From contig JAGHUL010000049.1 in the NCBI GenBank assembly GCA_018064825.1, positions 1 to 34,589 on the forward strand: 34,589 bases of DNA, read 5' to 3'. The DNA comes from Candidatus Colivicinus equi. Its GTDB lineage: Bacteria; Bacillota_I; Bacilli_A; Erysipelotrichales; Erysipelotrichaceae. Below the pieces are notes generated by a model that was not told the DNA's origin, searched no databases, and worked only from the letters and a program-made list of their open reading frames with translations. Below are positions 15,193 through 34,467 of this stretch, piece by piece; positions within the stretch are counted from its first letter, which is position 1, and every line of letters begins with the position of its first letter. The position numbers and the translations under genes are program-made.

Positions 15193-15379
15193 TTTTCTTT
15201 GTCTCCTTAAAATAAAAACGATAAATGCTATTGCCTAACTTGACATGATGTTTCATATCTTTTGTTGCGACAGCGGCATTCTTACTAATCTTTCCTTCTT
15301 TTATCATTTTGATTAATTCTTCATCAGAGAATAAATCATCAATGCCTTTAATCTTCCAAATCTTGCTCATCTGGATCAC
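15179..15379 (-). CDS. Small hypothetical protein
   Basis: 66 aa; overlaps the 3' end of the HTH/RCC1 gene and the start of cysS. Confidence 0.55.
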   Translation of the reverse strand: MIQMSKIWKIKGIDDLFSDEELIKMIKEGKISKNAAVATKDMKHHVKLGNSIYRFYFKETKKNETV

Positions 15380-17150
15380 TCTCCACTATTTTACAATATT
15401 TGTATTTTACTTTTCGTTTGCTTATTTCACTACGTGTAACTTTTTCGTCTTTTGAAATGCCAGCTATTTCAACAACATAATCATTACTTCCATCACACAA
15501 AGGATCATCTTCTATTTCGCTAGCACTTATATTCTTTTCTGGGATTCCTAGATATGCTAAATAACTATCAAATTGAGCTTTTGGTAATTTTTGTATTTCT
15601 CCGATTGTTATTATTTCTTCATCTTCATCGTCTTCTTTGTCGTCTTTATCGTCATCTTTCTTAGAATCATCAGTTTCGGTTTTGAATAAATAGTTTGTTT
15701 CGTAAGGAGTTGAATCTAAGTAGTCATCATCTCCTAATGCAACAATAGAAATCTTGTAACTTGTTCCTTCTTGCATATTTGTTACATCGAATTTAACTGT
15801 CTCTATCTCGTCTATTGTTTTGTTCAGACCTGTTCCTAAATCGATGCTAACTGAATATCCTGTAGCATTCTTCACACCATCAAACGAAACATATAGATAA
15901 TCTTCATCTTTACTAATTTTTACATTGCTTACTTGTGGCAATATTTGTGTTTTTATTTCTTCGGTTTCAAATTGTTTATATTTGTTCTTTCCTACACCAT
16001 ATATCTTTCTACCATCATAGCCAACTAAATAATCATCTGATGCAGCGATGCAAATTATGTTATTCCAGCTTGATACTTCTTCTTTATATTTTTCGTTTTC
16101 AATATCTATATGAACCTTGCCATATTCATCTAGGGCTGCGACGAAATCGTTGCCGCATGCTACATCAACGATACTATTCCAACCTTCTGCACTTAAGTAA
16201 TTATCTGTATTCTTTGTATAAACATCAATTGTTTTGTCTGTATTTAAGATTGTTAAAACATTGTCACTACCATCGATATCTAATATGTCATCATAGTTCT
16301 TTAAACTCGATGATCCTATGAAAGATCCAGAAAATATCAAACCACCGTCTTGATTTACTACGATAGAACCATCATCAAAGGCAAATATTTTTTTGACATT
16401 TCTTGTTCCTGCTAATTCACATTGTTTATTTGAATTTTCTCCCGTTGAGAATACTCTGCCGCTCGTGTCTAAAGCTAAAATATGATTATCTCCACAAGCG
16501 ATGTCGGTGATACTAGACCAGTCTTCAACTTCTTCGGCATATTTGCTTAATAAACCTATTGAACTAACTGTTCCATCTTCTTGTAAGATGATAGTGAAAC
16601 CTTCGCCTTCGCAAACTTTTATTGCGCCACTACTAGGAAGTAGCGATATTTGCCCATTGCTATTATCTCCTGTTCCTATTACCGCTCCAGAATCATCGAT
16701 GTATACAACATTAGTGCTTGATGATGATAAACGGCTAATGTTTTCTCTTACAATTTCTAATGGCTTATTTGATTTGTTTAATACAATTATCAAAACTAAA
16801 ATAACTACCAATAATGCGAAGATTATTCCTGTTACTAGTTTATTTCTCATTACAAAATTTTTGATATCTCTGAAAACACTTTTCTTTGTGAAATAGGCGA
16901 TATTTAAATCATCTGTTGTACTTCCTGTTGCCTCGTGAAGTGTTATTTTATCATCGTTTCTAAATATCTCTTCTACAGGAACATGATACAAAGATGCTAG
17001 TTTTTTTATCACTGGATAATTTGGAATATCGTTTCCATTTTCATAATTCATATATTTCAATGTGTCTACACCACAAACACTCGCAACCTTAGATTGTGAA
17101 TAACCGTAGTGTTTACGTAGTTTTAATAACTTATTTGGTAAGTAATTCAT
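15348..17150 (-). CDS. XRE-type HTH, single TM, extracytoplasmic RCC1-like repeat and FN3-like protein
   Basis: N-terminal HTH (LRKHYGYSQSKVASVCGVDTLKYMNYENGND), TM (LVTGIIFALLVVILVLIIVLN), RCC1-like repeats (DDSGAVIGTGDNSNGQ, LALDTSGRVFSTGENSNKQCEL, VAALDEYGKV), acidic linker. Confidence 0.75.
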   Translation of the reverse strand: MNYLPNKLLKLRKHYGYSQSKVASVCGVDTLKYMNYENGNDIPNYPVIKKLASLYHVPVEEIFRNDDKITLHEATGSTTDDLNIAYFTKKSVFRDIKNFVMRNKLVTGIIFALLVVILVLIIVLNKSNKPLEIVRENISRLSSSSTNVVYIDDSGAVIGTGDNSNGQISLLPSSGAIKVCEGEGFTIILQEDGTVSSIGLLSKYAEEVEDWSSITDIACGDNHILALDTSGRVFSTGENSNKQCELAGTRNVKKIFAFDDGSIVVNQDGGLIFSGSFIGSSSLKNYDDILDIDGSDNVLTILNTDKTIDVYTKNTDNYLSAEGWNSIVDVACGNDFVAALDEYGKVHIDIENEKYKEEVSSWNNIICIAASDDYLVGYDGRKIYGVGKNKYKQFETEEIKTQILPQVSNVKISKDEDYLYVSFDGVKNATGYSVSIDLGTGLNKTIDEIETVKFDVTNMQEGTSYKISIVALGDDDYLDSTPYETNYLFKTETDDSKKDDDKDDKEDDEDEEIITIGEIQKLPKAQFDSYLAYLGIPEKNISASEIEDDPLCDGSNDYVVEIAGISKDEKVTRSEISKRKVKYKYCKIVESDPDEQDLED

Positions 17151-27885: not shown

Positions 27886-27961
27886 GGGGAATTAGCTCAG
27901 TTGGGAGAGCACCTGCTTTGCAAGCAGGGGGTCAGGGGTTCGAATCCCCTATTCTCCACCA
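27886..27961 (+). tRNA. tRNA-Ala(TGC)
   Basis: GGGGAAT...ATTCTCC ACCA, anticodon loop ttTGCaa. Confidence 0.95.
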
Positions 27962-27994: not shown

Positions 27995-28000
27995 AATGCC

Positions 28001-28057
28001 TTTACCCCTATTTATTGCTAAAAATAGCTTGTTTTAGGGGTAAAATATAGGGGTAAA
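28001..28057. repeat. Three copies of a TAGGGGTAAA-type motif (one inverted) upstream of the integrase
   Basis: TTTACCCCTAT (28001-28011), TAGGGGTAAAA (28035-28045), ATAGGGGTAAA (28047-28057). Confidence 0.7.
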
Positions 28058-28085
28058 GATCATAAAACCTATAAGGAGCATTATT

Positions 28086-29753
28086 ATGAAACAGAAACCA
28101 GAATTACTTCCTAATTCACAAAGAAAACAATTTGAGGATTTCAAAGGAAAAAAGAACGAGTGGTTTGTTAGATTTAAGGTTTCTTATGTAGATGATTATG
28201 GAGAGAAACACAACAGCACTACATCTTGGTTTGATAACTGGGATGAGGCACTGGAAGCAAAGAACAAACTTATCCAGAAGCACACATCAGCAAAGCCATT
28301 AGTAAGTGATAAAGACACAATAGAAAAAGCATTAAAGAATTATATTGCTGAACTAAAAGCAAAAGATGATACTGATGTCCCTTCTGTATATGTTAAAAAA
28401 CTAATTGATAGAGCAAAGCACGGAGAACAATTATCCCGTGAAGAAAAGAAAACATTAAAACAATTTGAAGAAGGGAAACCAGTTAAAAACAACTATATTC
28501 ATAAATTAAAAAATGTTAGTTCTCTTTATAAGAACTTCTTTCCTAGTTTTGTTAAAAATGTAAAAGTTAAACAAGTTCAACCAGCTCATTTTGTTAAATG
28601 GTTAAACTGGATTAACAGCGACCAAGCAGAACACACATATATTGGTGGTGCTTCTGTAAAAAGATATGTTAATGCTTTACATAGTTTTAATCATTATCTA
28701 TATGAGCAAGGCTATTATGATATGAACCAAATGATTTTGATTAAAGCAAGTATAACAGCAACCAATGTTAAACCACTAAAAGAAGGTGCGAGAACTGATA
28801 GAGCATATCCACATTATGAAGATTTATTAAGATTTAGTAGATACTACAAAGATAAAGGATTGAACGATTTTAGAAACTTCTATTTCTATACTTTGTGGTA
28901 TGTGCTATTTATGACTGGAATAGCACCAGGAGAAGCCATAGCTTTAAGGTGGTCAGCAATTGATTTCAAAGGTAAAAACAATAATGGTTCAATTTCTATT
29001 GTTGATAGTATTGTTGAAACAGATAAAAGAAAAAATACTATGGCTAGAATTAGAAGTGGTAAAAATGAACCTAAAACAGAAGATAGAAAAAGAACAATTA
29101 CAATGTGGGTAGCTTATAGAGATTTATTAAAAGATTATAAGATGTCTTATAAGAAACATTTCAAAGTTAATAATGAAGAAATGGAAAATATGTTTGTATT
29201 CCCAAATATAACAGCAAGAGATGAAACAAAGAGAACAGAATATCAAAGACACGATAATCTAAACGAAGAATTAAAAAGAGTTTGTAAGCAATTAAAAATT
29301 GAACCAGATTACGATACACAAATGTTTAGACACGCAACAATCAATTTCTTATGTAATGATAAAGGAATTAAAGAAGATGATTGTAGAGCTTTCTTTGGTC
29401 ATTCAATAGAAAGTGAAACAATAGAAAAATTTTACAAAGACAAAGAAAGAGCAAAGAGAGTTAGTAAAGTTGAACTTCAACTTGAAGATTTAATTGATAA
29501 ACCTTTAAGTGATGATTATGATGAAAAGGCAGAAAAGATTACTGATAGATTAAGCAAAAATAATATTTCAAAATTAAATGCTATATCTGGTGTTGAAAGA
29601 GAAGCATTACAAATTGTTAAAGCTGTTAAAAGAGGTCAAAAGGTTTATGAATATAGAAACAAATATAGAAAGCTAATTGAAGTAATTTTAGAAGAGGCAC
29701 CAGAGCTTGAAGATATTATTGAGTTTGTTGAAGTAGATGATGATGAACTTTAA
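28086..29753 (+). CDS. int: Tyrosine recombinase/integrase of an integrative element
   Basis: TGIAPGEAIALRWSAIDF (box I Arg), MFRHATINFLCND (box II), FFGHSIESETIEKFYKD (His and catalytic Tyr); next to tRNA-Ala. Trp codons TGG (8), no internal TGA. Confidence 0.88.
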   Translation: MKQKPELLPNSQRKQFEDFKGKKNEWFVRFKVSYVDDYGEKHNSTTSWFDNWDEALEAKNKLIQKHTSAKPLVSDKDTIEKALKNYIAELKAKDDTDVPSVYVKKLIDRAKHGEQLSREEKKTLKQFEEGKPVKNNYIHKLKNVSSLYKNFFPSFVKNVKVKQVQPAHFVKWLNWINSDQAEHTYIGGASVKRYVNALHSFNHYLYEQGYYDMNQMILIKASITATNVKPLKEGARTDRAYPHYEDLLRFSRYYKDKGLNDFRNFYFYTLWYVLFMTGIAPGEAIALRWSAIDFKGKNNNGSISIVDSIVETDKRKNTMARIRSGKNEPKTEDRKRTITMWVAYRDLLKDYKMSYKKHFKVNNEEMENMFVFPNITARDETKRTEYQRHDNLNEELKRVCKQLKIEPDYDTQMFRHATINFLCNDKGIKEDDCRAFFGHSIESETIEKFYKDKERAKRVSKVELQLEDLIDKPLSDDYDEKAEKITDRLSKNNISKLNAISGVEREALQIVKAVKRGQKVYEYRNKYRKLIEVILEEAPELEDIIEFVEVDDDEL

Positions 29754-29760
29754 AAAACAA

Positions 29761-29790
29761 AAAACATAGTTAATAAAACTATGTTTTTTT
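29761..29790 (+). terminator. Integrase terminator
   Basis: AAAACATAGT-taataaa-ACTATGTTTT-TTT, 10-bp stem. Confidence 0.8.
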
Positions 29791-29826
29791 GTTATAAGTT
29801 AATGGCCTTCTTAGTATATTCTCCAT

Positions 29827-29882
29827 AGCAGATGAAATATTAAGTTTTATATGTTAGAACTTAATCTCCTATTTCATCTGCT
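29827..29882. repeat. Long nested inverted repeat upstream of the recoded module
   Basis: AGCAGATGAAATA / TATTTCATCTGCT (13 bp) enclosing TTAAGTT/AACTTAA. Confidence 0.85.
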
Positions 29883-29908
29883 CACTTATTTGTTGGAGGT
29901 ATAGAAAA

Positions 29909-30235
29909 GTGAAAAGTATAAACGAAGTAATTTCAATCAATCCAGAATGATTAAACAAAGTTGAATTAACCCTTTGTGGCTATAAGTTCAACGAAAAGAA
30001 GAACCTTGTTCAATTACAAGTAGCTATCACAAAGGATAGCAACAAGTATGAAACAGAAGGTGCTTCTAATTTTTATGAAAAGTTCAAAATTAACACACCA
30101 AGTGTTAAGCAAGAACAAATGAGTTCTTTAAAACTTGGTAAGAAAGTAAAACTTGAAAAGATTGAAAACGTAGTCATTTATGGTGATTACGAAAAAAATC
30201 TTTCTATCACATCATCTGTTCAATTCTATGACTAA
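29909..30235 (+). CDS. Small conserved-type element protein (first gene of recoded module), requires TGA=Trp
   Basis: GGAGG (29895-29899) then GTG at 29909; VKSINEVISINPE[W]LNKVELTLCGYKFNEKKNLVQLQVAITKDSNKYETEGASNFYEKFKINTPSVKQEQMSSLKLGKKVKLEKIENVVIYGDYEKNLSITSSVQFYD*, TGA at 29948-29950. Position resembles the small DUF961-type genes upstream of the Tn916 coupling protein; not verified. Confidence 0.75.
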
Positions 30236-31529
30236 TAGAACTTGATTTAGAAATCTGTTTGTAATAGTTCTTTTAGGAAATGTAGTTGTAGGAGCAACTA
30301 CATTTTATTTTTACAAGAGTTTTAATCTTACCTTTCTTTGAACTATTACAAAACTATTTATAATTGCTTTCTTACTTTGTGTTGTAGGTTTATTGTTTTA
30401 TATCTTTGTTATTAAAAAAGGATTACATGATTTTTGAATTGATTTTAAGATTAGAAACAACATTGAGCAGAACTTAATCTCAATAGGTGCTTATTATAAT
30501 AAAACAGATAAGAACATTTACTTTTTACCACCAGTAAAAATAGATGTTGCTAAATCTGTTATTACAATAGTTCTTGATGATGTGAAAATAAGAAAAGCTG
30601 TTGAAACATACATTGATTATTTTAGTTCTGCTTTACCAGATAATTTTGTTATCAAGGATTATTACATCAGCAATTCTGGAAATGAGTTTTACATCTATTA
30701 CAGAGATGAAACAAAAGACAATCAAATCCAATATAACAGTATAAATGAATATTTAACTCATATAGACACTTATAAACCTTTTGAAATTGAAGTTGATAAT
30801 GAACACATCATTAACTTAATAGACAACTCTCATTGACTTCTTAGTGGCTCTTCTGGAAGTGGTAAAAGTTTTCTGTCTCAACTTTTAACAATCCAGTTTA
30901 TAAGAAAAGGATTTGAGGTTTCTATTTATGATGTAAAACAATCTTATTCTGCTTTTGCTGATTACATAGAGGATTATGAAACAAGTCCAGATACAATCCT
31001 TGAAAAACTTTGTGCTGTTGCTGATGAAATGAAGCAAAGACAAAGCACTATAAAGGATTTATTAAAAACAAATCCAAGGGCTTTAGCTGTTGATTATGGC
31101 TACAAGCAAAAAATCATTATCATTGAAGAATACATTGGATTAAAGACAATGTTAGCAAAAGACAAAGACAAAATTAAGCTTCTTGAAAATATCATTAAAG
31201 AAATCTCTGTATTAGCAAGGTCAGTAAATATTTCATTGTTCATAGTGGCTCAATCCTCTTCTGTGGATTTAATAGATGCCTCTATAAAGAACAACTTGAA
31301 TAAAATCTTTCTGGGCTACCTTGCTTCAAATATTCAAGTTTCAACTTTCGGCACAGGTGTTGAAGTTCCAACTTTTAATAAAATCAAAAAAGGTTATGGC
31401 TACATTCAATTAGATAAAGTTGAACAAATTAAAGTGCCTAATGTTGTTTATTCTGTTGAAGAACTCAAAATATTAAAAAATAACCTTTGCGAAGAAAAGG
31501 CAGAAAGCCTTTTCTCGCAAATCAGTTAA
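30228..31529 (+). CDS. FtsK/TcpA-like coupling-protein ATPase, requires TGA=Trp at four positions
   Basis: ATG 30228 overlaps the upstream gene end. In-frame TGAs at 30243, 30339, 30435, 30834. Product has two N-terminal TMs, H[W]LLSGSSGSGKSFL Walker A, KIIIIEEYIGL Walker B and SLFIVAQSS, like Tn916 Orf21/TcpA. Joins track ORFs 30582-30836 and 31029-31529, which share a frame. Confidence 0.85.
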
Positions 31530-31559
31530 GTCCCTTAATCTATTTATAGGGACTTAACT
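31524..31559. repeat. 12-bp perfect inverted repeat between coupling ATPase and Rep; candidate oriT/dso
   Basis: AGTTAAGTCCCT-taatctatttat-AGGGACTTAACT; not followed by a T-run. Confidence 0.8.
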
Positions 31560-31567
31560 CGGACAAA

Positions 31568-32377
31568 ATGAATAAAGATAATCAATATAAAGCAAAGGTT
31601 AAAGAGTTCAACAATGGAAAAATTAAAATCAGAGAATATCAATCTTTAATGACTATTCCAAAAGATAAAACTAAAAACTCTGGTAGCCCAGAATCTCAAA
31701 AAAGAATCTTGAGGGCTAACGGAGAAATCACAAAAAGAAGTTTATCCAGAACAAGACAAACTTTAATTGAACTTGTTGAAAACAATGAAGATAGATTTAA
31801 GAGTTTCATTACTTTAACTTATAAAGAAGATATTGAAAATATAAGTGAAGCATATTCTAATCTTCAAAGCTACATTAGAAGCTGTAAGAGAAACTTTCCA
31901 GATTTTTGTTATGTTGCTGTTCCAGAAATACAGCACCACAGAGCAAAGAAAACTTGTAAATATGTAATCCATTTCCACATCATAACAAATGCCCCAGTAG
32001 GTTCAAAATTGATACCAGAAAGAGAACCTAAACAGATTACTGGAGCAGATTTCAAAGGAACTAAAACAATAACATATTATGATGTTGAATATTGAAACAA
32101 AGGCTTCTCTATTGCCTTGCCTATAATCCAACAAGGAGAGTTTGAACTTTCAAAATATCTTCTTAAATATCTTTATAAGGATTTGGATAATAGGTTCTAT
32201 GGTAGGCAAAAACTATTACATAGTAATAACTTAAAAGCACCAGAGTTTAATTATTATTTAAATGCTGATGAAATCAAAGAAGAAAACAAAAAGGATATTC
32301 AAGAGGTTTATTCCTTGTTAGAGGGAGAAACTCAATACCCTTTCATTGATTACATATACAAAAAAGACAAGGTTTAA
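31568..32377 (+). CDS. rep: HUH-type rolling-circle replication initiator/relaxase (Rep), requires TGA=Trp at codon 176
   Basis: FKSFITLTYKED (motif I), KYVIHFHIIT (HUH motif II), then VEY[W=TGA 32093-32095]NKGFS, then FELSKYLLKYLYKD (YxxK motif III). Track ORFs 31568-32095 and 32117-32377 share a frame. Confidence 0.85.
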
Positions 32378-32407: not shown

Positions 32408-32956
32408 TTATTCTCTCTGTTGTTGCATTTTCCAAATATTAGCACTTCTTAGTATATCTTCAATAAAATCACTTTTAGCATTTGTATAAGCAATTCTATC
32501 CTCAGAAAATTTTTCTGCCAAATATACTTTTAATTTTGAATATTCCATAGCTTTATCTTCGTGAGCATTCAAATAATCTCGCATATTAATGTAGTTATTC
32601 CAGGAAGCCTGTCCCCAAATAACCACATGTATATAATGGGTTTGAATATTCTTTTCCAACTCTCCAGAAACATATAGATGTTGCCCAGGATGGTCTTCTC
32701 TACGATATACAATTCCTCTTTGCGCCAATTCATCATTATGTTTGAAGATTTTATCAAAACTACTGACTCCTACAACAATATCTATTATAGGTTTAGCACA
32801 TATTTTTTTTATTGCTGTGCTTCCTATATGCTGAGCATCAATCAAATCCTCTTTCATTACTTCTTTCAAAATCTGTATTGTTTCTTCAGCCAATAGCTCC
32901 CACTTAACTTTGTGTTGTTCTACTGCTACAGTTCCTATTTTCAAACCAGTTGACAT
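32408..32956 (-). CDS. GrpB family (UPF0157) nucleotidyltransferase-like protein
   Basis: LKEVMKEDLIDAQHIGSTAIKKICAKPIIDIVVGVSSFD, HIHVVIWGQASWNNYINMRDYL; Trp codons TGG. Confidence 0.88.
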   Translation of the reverse strand: MSTGLKIGTVAVEQHKVKWELLAEETIQILKEVMKEDLIDAQHIGSTAIKKICAKPIIDIVVGVSSFDKIFKHNDELAQRGIVYRREDHPGQHLYVSGELEKNIQTHYIHVVIWGQASWNNYINMRDYLNAHEDKAMEYSKLKVYLAEKFSEDRIAYTNAKSDFIEDILRSANIWKMQQQRE

Positions 32957-33252: not shown

Positions 33253-34467
33253 ATGATCAGTGTAGGAATTGATGTCTCAAAAGGTAAAAGTACTATTAGC
33301 GCTCTTAAGCCATATGGAGAAGTAGTATTATCGCCTAAAGACTATAAACACTGTATTAGTGATTTGAACTTATTCATTAAAAAACTTGGCCAGTTTAAAA
33401 AAGAAGAAATTCATATCATTATGGAAGCTACAGGTAACTACCATCTTCCAATTTCAAATTACTTCAAAGATAAAGGATATGAAGTAATAATCGTTAATCC
33501 TTTAGAAATGAAGAGATATCGCTATCAGGGAATAAGAAATCCAAAGACTGATAGAATTGATTCTCTTATCATTGCCCAGTATGGTATCGATTATTGGTAT
33601 AAGAAAAATGAAAATTTAATAATGAGCGATGAAAGAGAAGAATTAAGATTCCTAGGAAAACAATATGTTCAGTTTATGAAAACTAGAAGTAATAGAAGCA
33701 TAGCTTTATGTAATCTATTAGATCAGACAATGCCAGGAATCTATGATTTACTTGATGATTTCAATAGAAATAATGGTAAAGATAAGCTTTGTGACTTCGT
33801 GGAAGAATATTGGCACAGAGATTTAATCATCAAATATTCTGAAAACAAATTCATTGAAAGATATAATAAATGGCTAAAGAAAAAAGGATATCGTCTAAAT
33901 GGAAATGAAGCCCACCAGCTATACATTATCTCTAAAGACGCTATCCCTACTCTTAAAGCTGATGAATCAACACATATGGTTGTATTGTCAGCTGTAAGCC
34001 TACTTAAGGAAACTAATACTTCCTTGTTTACTATTTTAGCCAAAATGAGACAACTAGCCAAACAAATGCCAGAATACGAAACAGTTATGGCTATGAAAGG
34101 TGTTGGCGATAGTATAGGACCTAGGCTTATAGCTGAGATTGGTGATCCCAGAAGATTTCATAGTGCTAAAGCTTTAATAGCTTATTCAGGAATTGATGCA
34201 CCACCATATCAGTCAGGACAGTTTACAGGAACTGATAGACACATGTCTAAACGAGGTTCTAAAATTATGAGAAAGCTTGGATATGAACTTATAGATTCTA
34301 TTAATAAACATCAAGTTTCTTATCAAGGAGATCCAGTAACTAATTATTTCCTAAAGAAAAGACAAGAAGGAAAACACTATAGAGTTGCCATGTTTGCGGC
34401 TTACAATAAATTCTTAAGAATATATCATTCTAGAGTATCAGAAGTATTAAATACTTTAGAAGCATAA
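33253..34467 (+). mobile_element. IS110-family transposase (DEDD plus C-terminal Transposase_20)
   Basis: MISVGIDVSKGKSTISAL, IIMEATGNYHLPIS, RNPKTDRIDSLIIAQYG, GVGDSIGPRLIAEIGDPRRFHSAKALIAYSGIDAPPYQSGQFTG. Confidence 0.95.

Follow-up and report, generated by a model that had tools for sequence, protein, structure and literature searches.

The core of ICEBs1/Tn916-type elements is made up of a HelP helper, an FtsK-type coupling ATPase (ConQ/TcpA), a Rep-type nuclease (NicK/Orf20) and a tyrosine integrase. Stop-codon recoding in standard-code hosts is known, for its part, from large phages equipped with tRNAs of their own. Here, we describe an element of “Ca. Colivicinus equi” that has something of both, located towards the end of a contig (the window, below, is the whole stretch of 34,589 nucleotides that was analyzed). 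As ICEBs1/Tn916-type elements are generally described, the likeness extends to all four components of their core, i.e., helper, FtsK-type ATPase, Rep-type nuclease and tyrosine integrase, and in the genome G304 the helper, the ATPase and a different initiator are ordered as in that core. Unlike these elements, which are written in the standard code, the one described here has an initiator of a different family and part of its genes are recoded; type IV secretion genes were not seen on it. Like the stop-recoded phages (crAss-like and others), it is mobile DNA that resides in a standard-code host and is written in part with a stop codon as sense, but those phages have suppressor tRNAs and further genes for a code shift, and nothing of this kind was seen in the window. 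Stop-codon recoding in mobile DNA is thus already known as a kind, and the element varies it. What is new is a small integrative element recoded without a code-shift gene in view, in which the boundary between the two codes sits between the integrase and the transfer module.

Several other described or recoverable systems share parts of this organization. In G187 (contig 55, from the same bacterial family) and G189, homologues of the integrase precede matching genes for the small protein and the FtsK-like ATPase, in the order found here, which supports reading the locus as an element; the G187 copy also adjoins a tRNA gene (tRNA-Val). Both differ from the present element in being written in the standard code and in the low identity of their ATPases (ca. 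30%); the initiator of G189 is of another kind, and that of G187 would lie beyond the contig end. The circular plasmid pRGI00142 (HG796265.1, 6.7 kb) carries the small protein, the FtsK-like ATPase and a PF23343-type initiator adjacent to each other and in the same order, but it is a free replicon in the standard code and has no relative of the integrase. Finally, the initiators of filamentous phages (inoviruses and plectroviruses) belong to the same family and have a near-invariant Trp, which the copies of G516 and G569 write as TGA. In contrast with these phages, neither coat nor Zot-type genes were recognized on the element (for coat-type genes, by window gene and profile searches). Two filamentous-phage-like contigs of IMG/VR (L114 and L115) code for initiators 39 and 32% identical to that of the element, a link to inovirus-like phage replication.

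Integration site and boundaries

The element begins just downstream of a tRNA-Ala(TGC) gene (27886..27961, plus strand, detected by ARAGORN), its presumed integration site. A genome of the same genus (G127) is 80% identical to the window up to where this tRNA ends and bears no relation to it further on, that is, it represents the unoccupied site. The tRNA is followed by a tyrosine integrase gene (28086..29753, plus strand; 555 aa; PHROG phrog_1 integrase, E value of 4e-19) in the standard code. No relatives of this integrase appeared in viral contigs and plasmids, and among phages only distant phage-satellite integrases were found. Between the tRNA and the integrase (window 28000-28065) there are AGGGGTAAA repeats in both orientations, possible arm-binding sites of the integrase. 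A terminator-like hairpin with a T run (29760..29790, plus strand), visible in the sequence and by folding, comes after the integrase gene, and folding also revealed a long stem-loop (29827..29882, plus strand) just 5' of the recoded module, a candidate origin or nick region. The folding of 29754-29908 gave a z-score of -7.45, a value joint for the stem-loop and the terminator hairpin. A conserved origin hairpin was considered and set aside: several relatives have hairpins 5' of the small-protein gene, without a clear common sequence.

On the other side of the module there is a GrpB-family gene (32408..32956, minus strand; Pfam GrpB, E value of 8.5e-41), which could be flank or cargo, and an IS110 transposase gene (33253..34467, plus strand; NCBIfam transpos_IS110) that belongs to the right flank, both in the standard code. 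Copies of this IS110 elsewhere in the host genus are 71-75% identical. A second copy of the tRNA-Ala end (the direct repeat of attR) was not found within the window; the contig ends at 34589 and attR may lie beyond. Up to and including the initiator gene, the element measures ca. 4.4 kb from the tRNA. Two different elements with initiators of this family, each in another genus, make use of tRNA-Ala genes (window 27886-27961 and L222:8508-8583); in G241 a pair formed by integrase and initiator adjoins a tRNA-Ala(GGC).

Reading frames and gene content

Three consecutive genes on the plus strand, 810 codons in all, are open only with TGA as sense. Table 4 translation gives full frames of 108 (gene 1, 29909..30235), 433 (gene 2, 30228..31529, with a possible alternative upstream start at 30180) and 269 aa (gene 3, 31568..32377). 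There are six in-frame TGAs, at window positions 29948, 30243, 30339, 30435, 30834 and 32093, which correspond to W14 in gene 1, to W6, W38, W70 and W203 in gene 2 and to W176 in gene 3. An earlier note on this DNA had listed these positions, which match the translation exactly, and had described three TGA-as-sense genes free of internal TAA/TAG, of TGG and of frameshifts, between neighbors that use TGG only. Our counts agree on every point: the three genes end in TAA, and the integrase (8 TGG), GrpB (4), IS110 (3) and cysS (9) have no internal TGA. The difference between the integrase (8 TGG, 0 TGA) and the module (0 TGG, 6 TGA) is significant by Fisher’s test (p = 3.3e-4), and TGA is the terminator of four host genes inside the window. 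The same note had warned of fragmentation by standard gene callers, and indeed table 11 splits all three genes, so that such elements are missed.

Gene 3 codes for an HUH-type rolling-circle initiator or relaxase. It scores 38.5 bits against PF23343 (REP_ORF2-G2P; cut-off of 27.8) and matches phrog_3419 with an E value of 3e-19, and both its HUH residues (H135/H137) and Y197, K200 and Y201 of its YxxKYxxK motif (197-204) are conserved. Its structure prediction was poor (mean pLDDT of 46.9) and was set aside. Gene 2, with full-length homologues, codes for an FtsK/TraG-like ATPase that is above the Pfam cut-off for both P-loop_TraG and FtsK_SpoIIIE, matching FtsK/TraG-type families and not Zot, with two hydrophobic N-terminal segments in its hydropathy profile. 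The small protein of gene 1 matched no Pfam family. It has homologues in G187, G212, G189 and plasmid pRGI00142, each preceding the ATPase gene, and presumably occupies the slot of a HelP/SSB-like helper gene. The families of the initiator and the ATPase, together with the homologous gene sets, bear out the idea of a plasmid/IME-like replication and transfer module put forward in the earlier note. The element is integrative and probably a mobilizable, plasmid-like one, for which we infer transfer from these genes.

Meaning of TGA

The decisive site is the TGA at 32093..32095 (plus strand), codon 176 of the initiator, which falls within a W..G motif where nearly all relatives have Trp. By codon comparison across homologues, 18 distinct standard-code genes have TGG at this column, 7 code-4-type copies have TGA and a single homologue has TAT, the seven TGA copies coming from two genomes (G516 and G569) and being called code-4-type from the several in-frame TGAs that each copy contains. 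Further homologues with a residue at this column have TGG in 39 out of 40 cases (a few of them overlap with the first set). The catalytic tyrosines Y197 and Y201 are conserved and located 3' of W176, and a stop at codon 176 would remove them. Given the near-invariant Trp column, with TGG in standard-code and TGA in code-4-type homologues, it is well supported by these alignments that TGA in the initiator stands for Trp, and the same reading is likely across the whole module.

The earlier note had proposed looking for conserved Trp at all the TGA columns. This held for one site out of six, W176; the other five are in variable columns, each uninformative alone, and for this reason only the initiator site was used to establish the identity of TGA. 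Ala and Leu were tried as alternative meanings, and a substitution score over the six columns failed to tell Ala, Trp and Leu apart. Of four FtsK homologues, three are devoid of Trp, so the TGAs of gene 2 do not replace Trp codons that were once conserved. Codons 6, 38 and 70 of this gene flank its two hydrophobic N-terminal segments. Trp is common beside hydrophobic membrane-type segments, and these three codons would be placed where it is to be expected.

Genetic code and tRNA-Trp of the host

The host genome is standard code, not code 4, as had already been claimed. Its RF2 is above the profile cut-off and has the classical CTTTGAC programmed frameshift site, TGA terminates 27 of 293 genes in a 404-kb sample, and the 35 tRNAs found (the genome is a draft and some are missing) include a single tRNA-Trp, with anticodon CCA. 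No tRNA with a UCA anticodon was detected among these 35 or on the element, nor was any suppressor tRNA or release factor within the window, although the element may run past the contig end. In the 404-kb sample no other genes had several internal TGAs; the remaining candidates with internal TGA turned out, on inspection, to be neighboring genes or short tails.

The host tRNA-Trp (G000:C94:1503-1576; L099:504-577, minus strand) has a U27.C43 mismatch that leaves an anticodon stem of 4 bp, together with A24 and C9. Among the full-length tRNA-Trp copies retrieved from the genus, the broken 27-43 pair and A24 are found in all, and C9 in four, including the host. A study from 2026 reported that the 4-bp stem raises UGA readthrough ca. 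2.5-fold in E. coli on overexpression, that G24A and A9C likewise promote it and that ca. 6.5% of standard-code bacteria carry the 4-bp form of tRNA-Trp only (PMC13092985). The host tRNA-Trp(CCA) is a possible natural UGA reader in an RF2-containing lineage, by analogy with variants among which its own 27/43 combination does not figure (PMC13092985). The tRNA-Trp background would be permissive for UGA reading rather than proof of it, and, being common to the whole genus, the trait is not tied to the insertion. By the same analogy, the module may not be dead in its host but throttled. The finding raises the question of how far UGA is read in nature by the widespread 4-bp-stem tRNA-Trp(CCA) genes.

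Relatives and codon usage

The same gene set is present in relatives from the same bacterial family, all of them in the standard code. In the initiator tree, the element is sister to G035 (support of 0.86) within a wider clade (0.99) of standard-code relatives of the same family, and the code-4-type copies of G516 and G569 form a branch separate from its initiator. A truncated initiator relic was found in a genome of the host genus (G112, contig 11, L242:1970-2305, minus strand), 62.6% identical to gene 3 and with TGG at the Trp column. This relic abuts guaA (GMP synthase) at its 3' end, which points to guaA as the integration site of a sister element. Two apparent additional members, each flagged with one TGA, were discarded: the G241 gene is intact in the standard code with no internal TGA, and that of G189 consists of two overlapping frames. 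Across 171 genomes from the order that holds the code-4-type genomes, the FtsK-like gene had no relative along its full length, and the ATPase matches obtained there span little beyond the P-loop domain. For genes 2 and 3, scanning genome and viral collections with single sequences retrieved no close relatives, and no relatives of the element at the DNA level were found among plasmids and phages.

Arginine codons of the CGN type are absent from the module (0 of 22) and nearly so from the integrase (1 of 30), compared with 26.5% in the host, an avoidance that counts against a purely local evolution. AGA-rich codon usage is, on the other hand, common in mobile elements. Residence in a code-4 bacterium explains the full switch to TGA in the module, not the eight TGG codons of the integrase; these would fit such residence if the integrase had been selected for readability in standard-code cells, or exchanged. 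The earlier proposal of a code-4 module in a standard-code carrier can thus be retained for the initiator Trp column, the IME-like genes and the code of the host, and not for the acquisition from a code-4 host. The note had also considered a translational switch, for which the element supplied no suppressor tRNA and the readthrough-prone tRNA-Trp of the genus may provide a basis. An origin in such a host, or adaptation to it, has in its favor the use of TGA for Trp and against it that no donor was found and that the nearest relatives are standard code and from the same genus or family.

Origin of the codon pattern

Among the alternatives, TGA as Trp in an IME-like module is the one that holds best, with a code-4 source unproven. 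We lean, by a little more than an even balance, towards an integrated, probably mobilizable, plasmid-like element with replication and transfer genes in which UGA is Trp and with a standard-code integrase, its codon pattern deriving most likely from residence in a code-4 bacterium. The observations on which this is built are the code content, the Trp identity at W176, the host code and the integration site. The integrase could be produced in any host and would insert the element at tRNA-Ala, and completing the FtsK-like ATPase and the initiator would require a cell that reads UGA as Trp. The present host would offer weak readthrough by the leaky tRNA-Trp(CCA), with the element silent or nearly so; a low-level product is conceivable for the initiator, with one UGA, and practically none for the ATPase, with four. 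Full replication and transfer would take place only in a cell with UGA as Trp. The silence in the host, the activity elsewhere and a selective value of the code boundary between integrase and module are steps that we infer. Counting against this explanation are that a single TGA column out of six is informative, the missing code-4 donor, the TGG in the relic of the same genus and the eight TGGs of the integrase, as well as the genus-wide occurrence of the tRNA trait and the four UGAs of gene 2, from which hardly any product would be expected at the usual levels of readthrough.

A more specific version, to which we give only tentative credit, is that of an element gated by the code, with an integrase readable everywhere and transfer genes readable only with UGA as Trp. 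It would be a silent rider, active in a code-4 cell or when the leaky tRNA-Trp outcompetes RF2. The element in any case raises the question of whether a difference in genetic code can gate the host range of mobile DNA.

Residence in a code-4 bacterium has as its main competitor an origin of the pattern in place, as a translational brake, in which the UGAs keep the transfer genes off until the leaky tRNA-Trp, or some condition that weakens RF2, allows their completion. The TGA-free integrase followed by a TGA-rich module resembles phages that recode their late genes (PMC10746230), the host tRNA-Trp has the 4-bp anticodon stem, A24 and C9, and the closest relatives are indigenous to this genus and family. 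However, no other host gene in the 404 kb uses TGA in this way, the tRNA is genus-wide and yet one element only shows the TGAs, the base after TGA differs with none common to the six sites, and four UGAs in one gene exceed what a brake would need. We regard it as unlikely.

Less probable again is that the element is simply decaying, its TGAs being plain nonsense mutations in genes that have lost their use. Five of the six are at variable, non-Trp columns, W203 can be explained by a TTA to TGA change, and the relatives in G189 and G112 are, for their part, broken or truncated. Nevertheless, given the codon composition of the three genes, a random nonsense change gives TGA in 16-20% of cases, and the probability of six TGAs and no TAA or TAG by random decay is 2e-5 to 6e-5. 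Six nonsense changes would imply ca. 100-160 random substitutions, but there is no frameshift, the Walker A, Walker B, HUH and YxxKYxxK motifs are all intact 3' of TGAs, and TGG is absent from the 810 codons. An assembly chimera or contamination, i.e., the module of a code-4 organism wrongly joined, is very improbable: the genome is a draft of 130 contigs with an estimated contamination of 5.4%, the element is close to a contig end and earlier signals of this sort were caused by contamination (PMC8629427), but the left flank is syntenic with a genome of the same genus up to the tRNA, the order of integrase, small protein and FtsK is a natural one, found in G187 and G189, and the IS110 at the right flank is of the type of the host genus.

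Elsewhere in the window (15348-17150, minus strand) there is a gene for a 600-aa protein that combines what looks like a helix-turn-helix regulator at its N terminus with a membrane segment and a long stretch resembling repeats.
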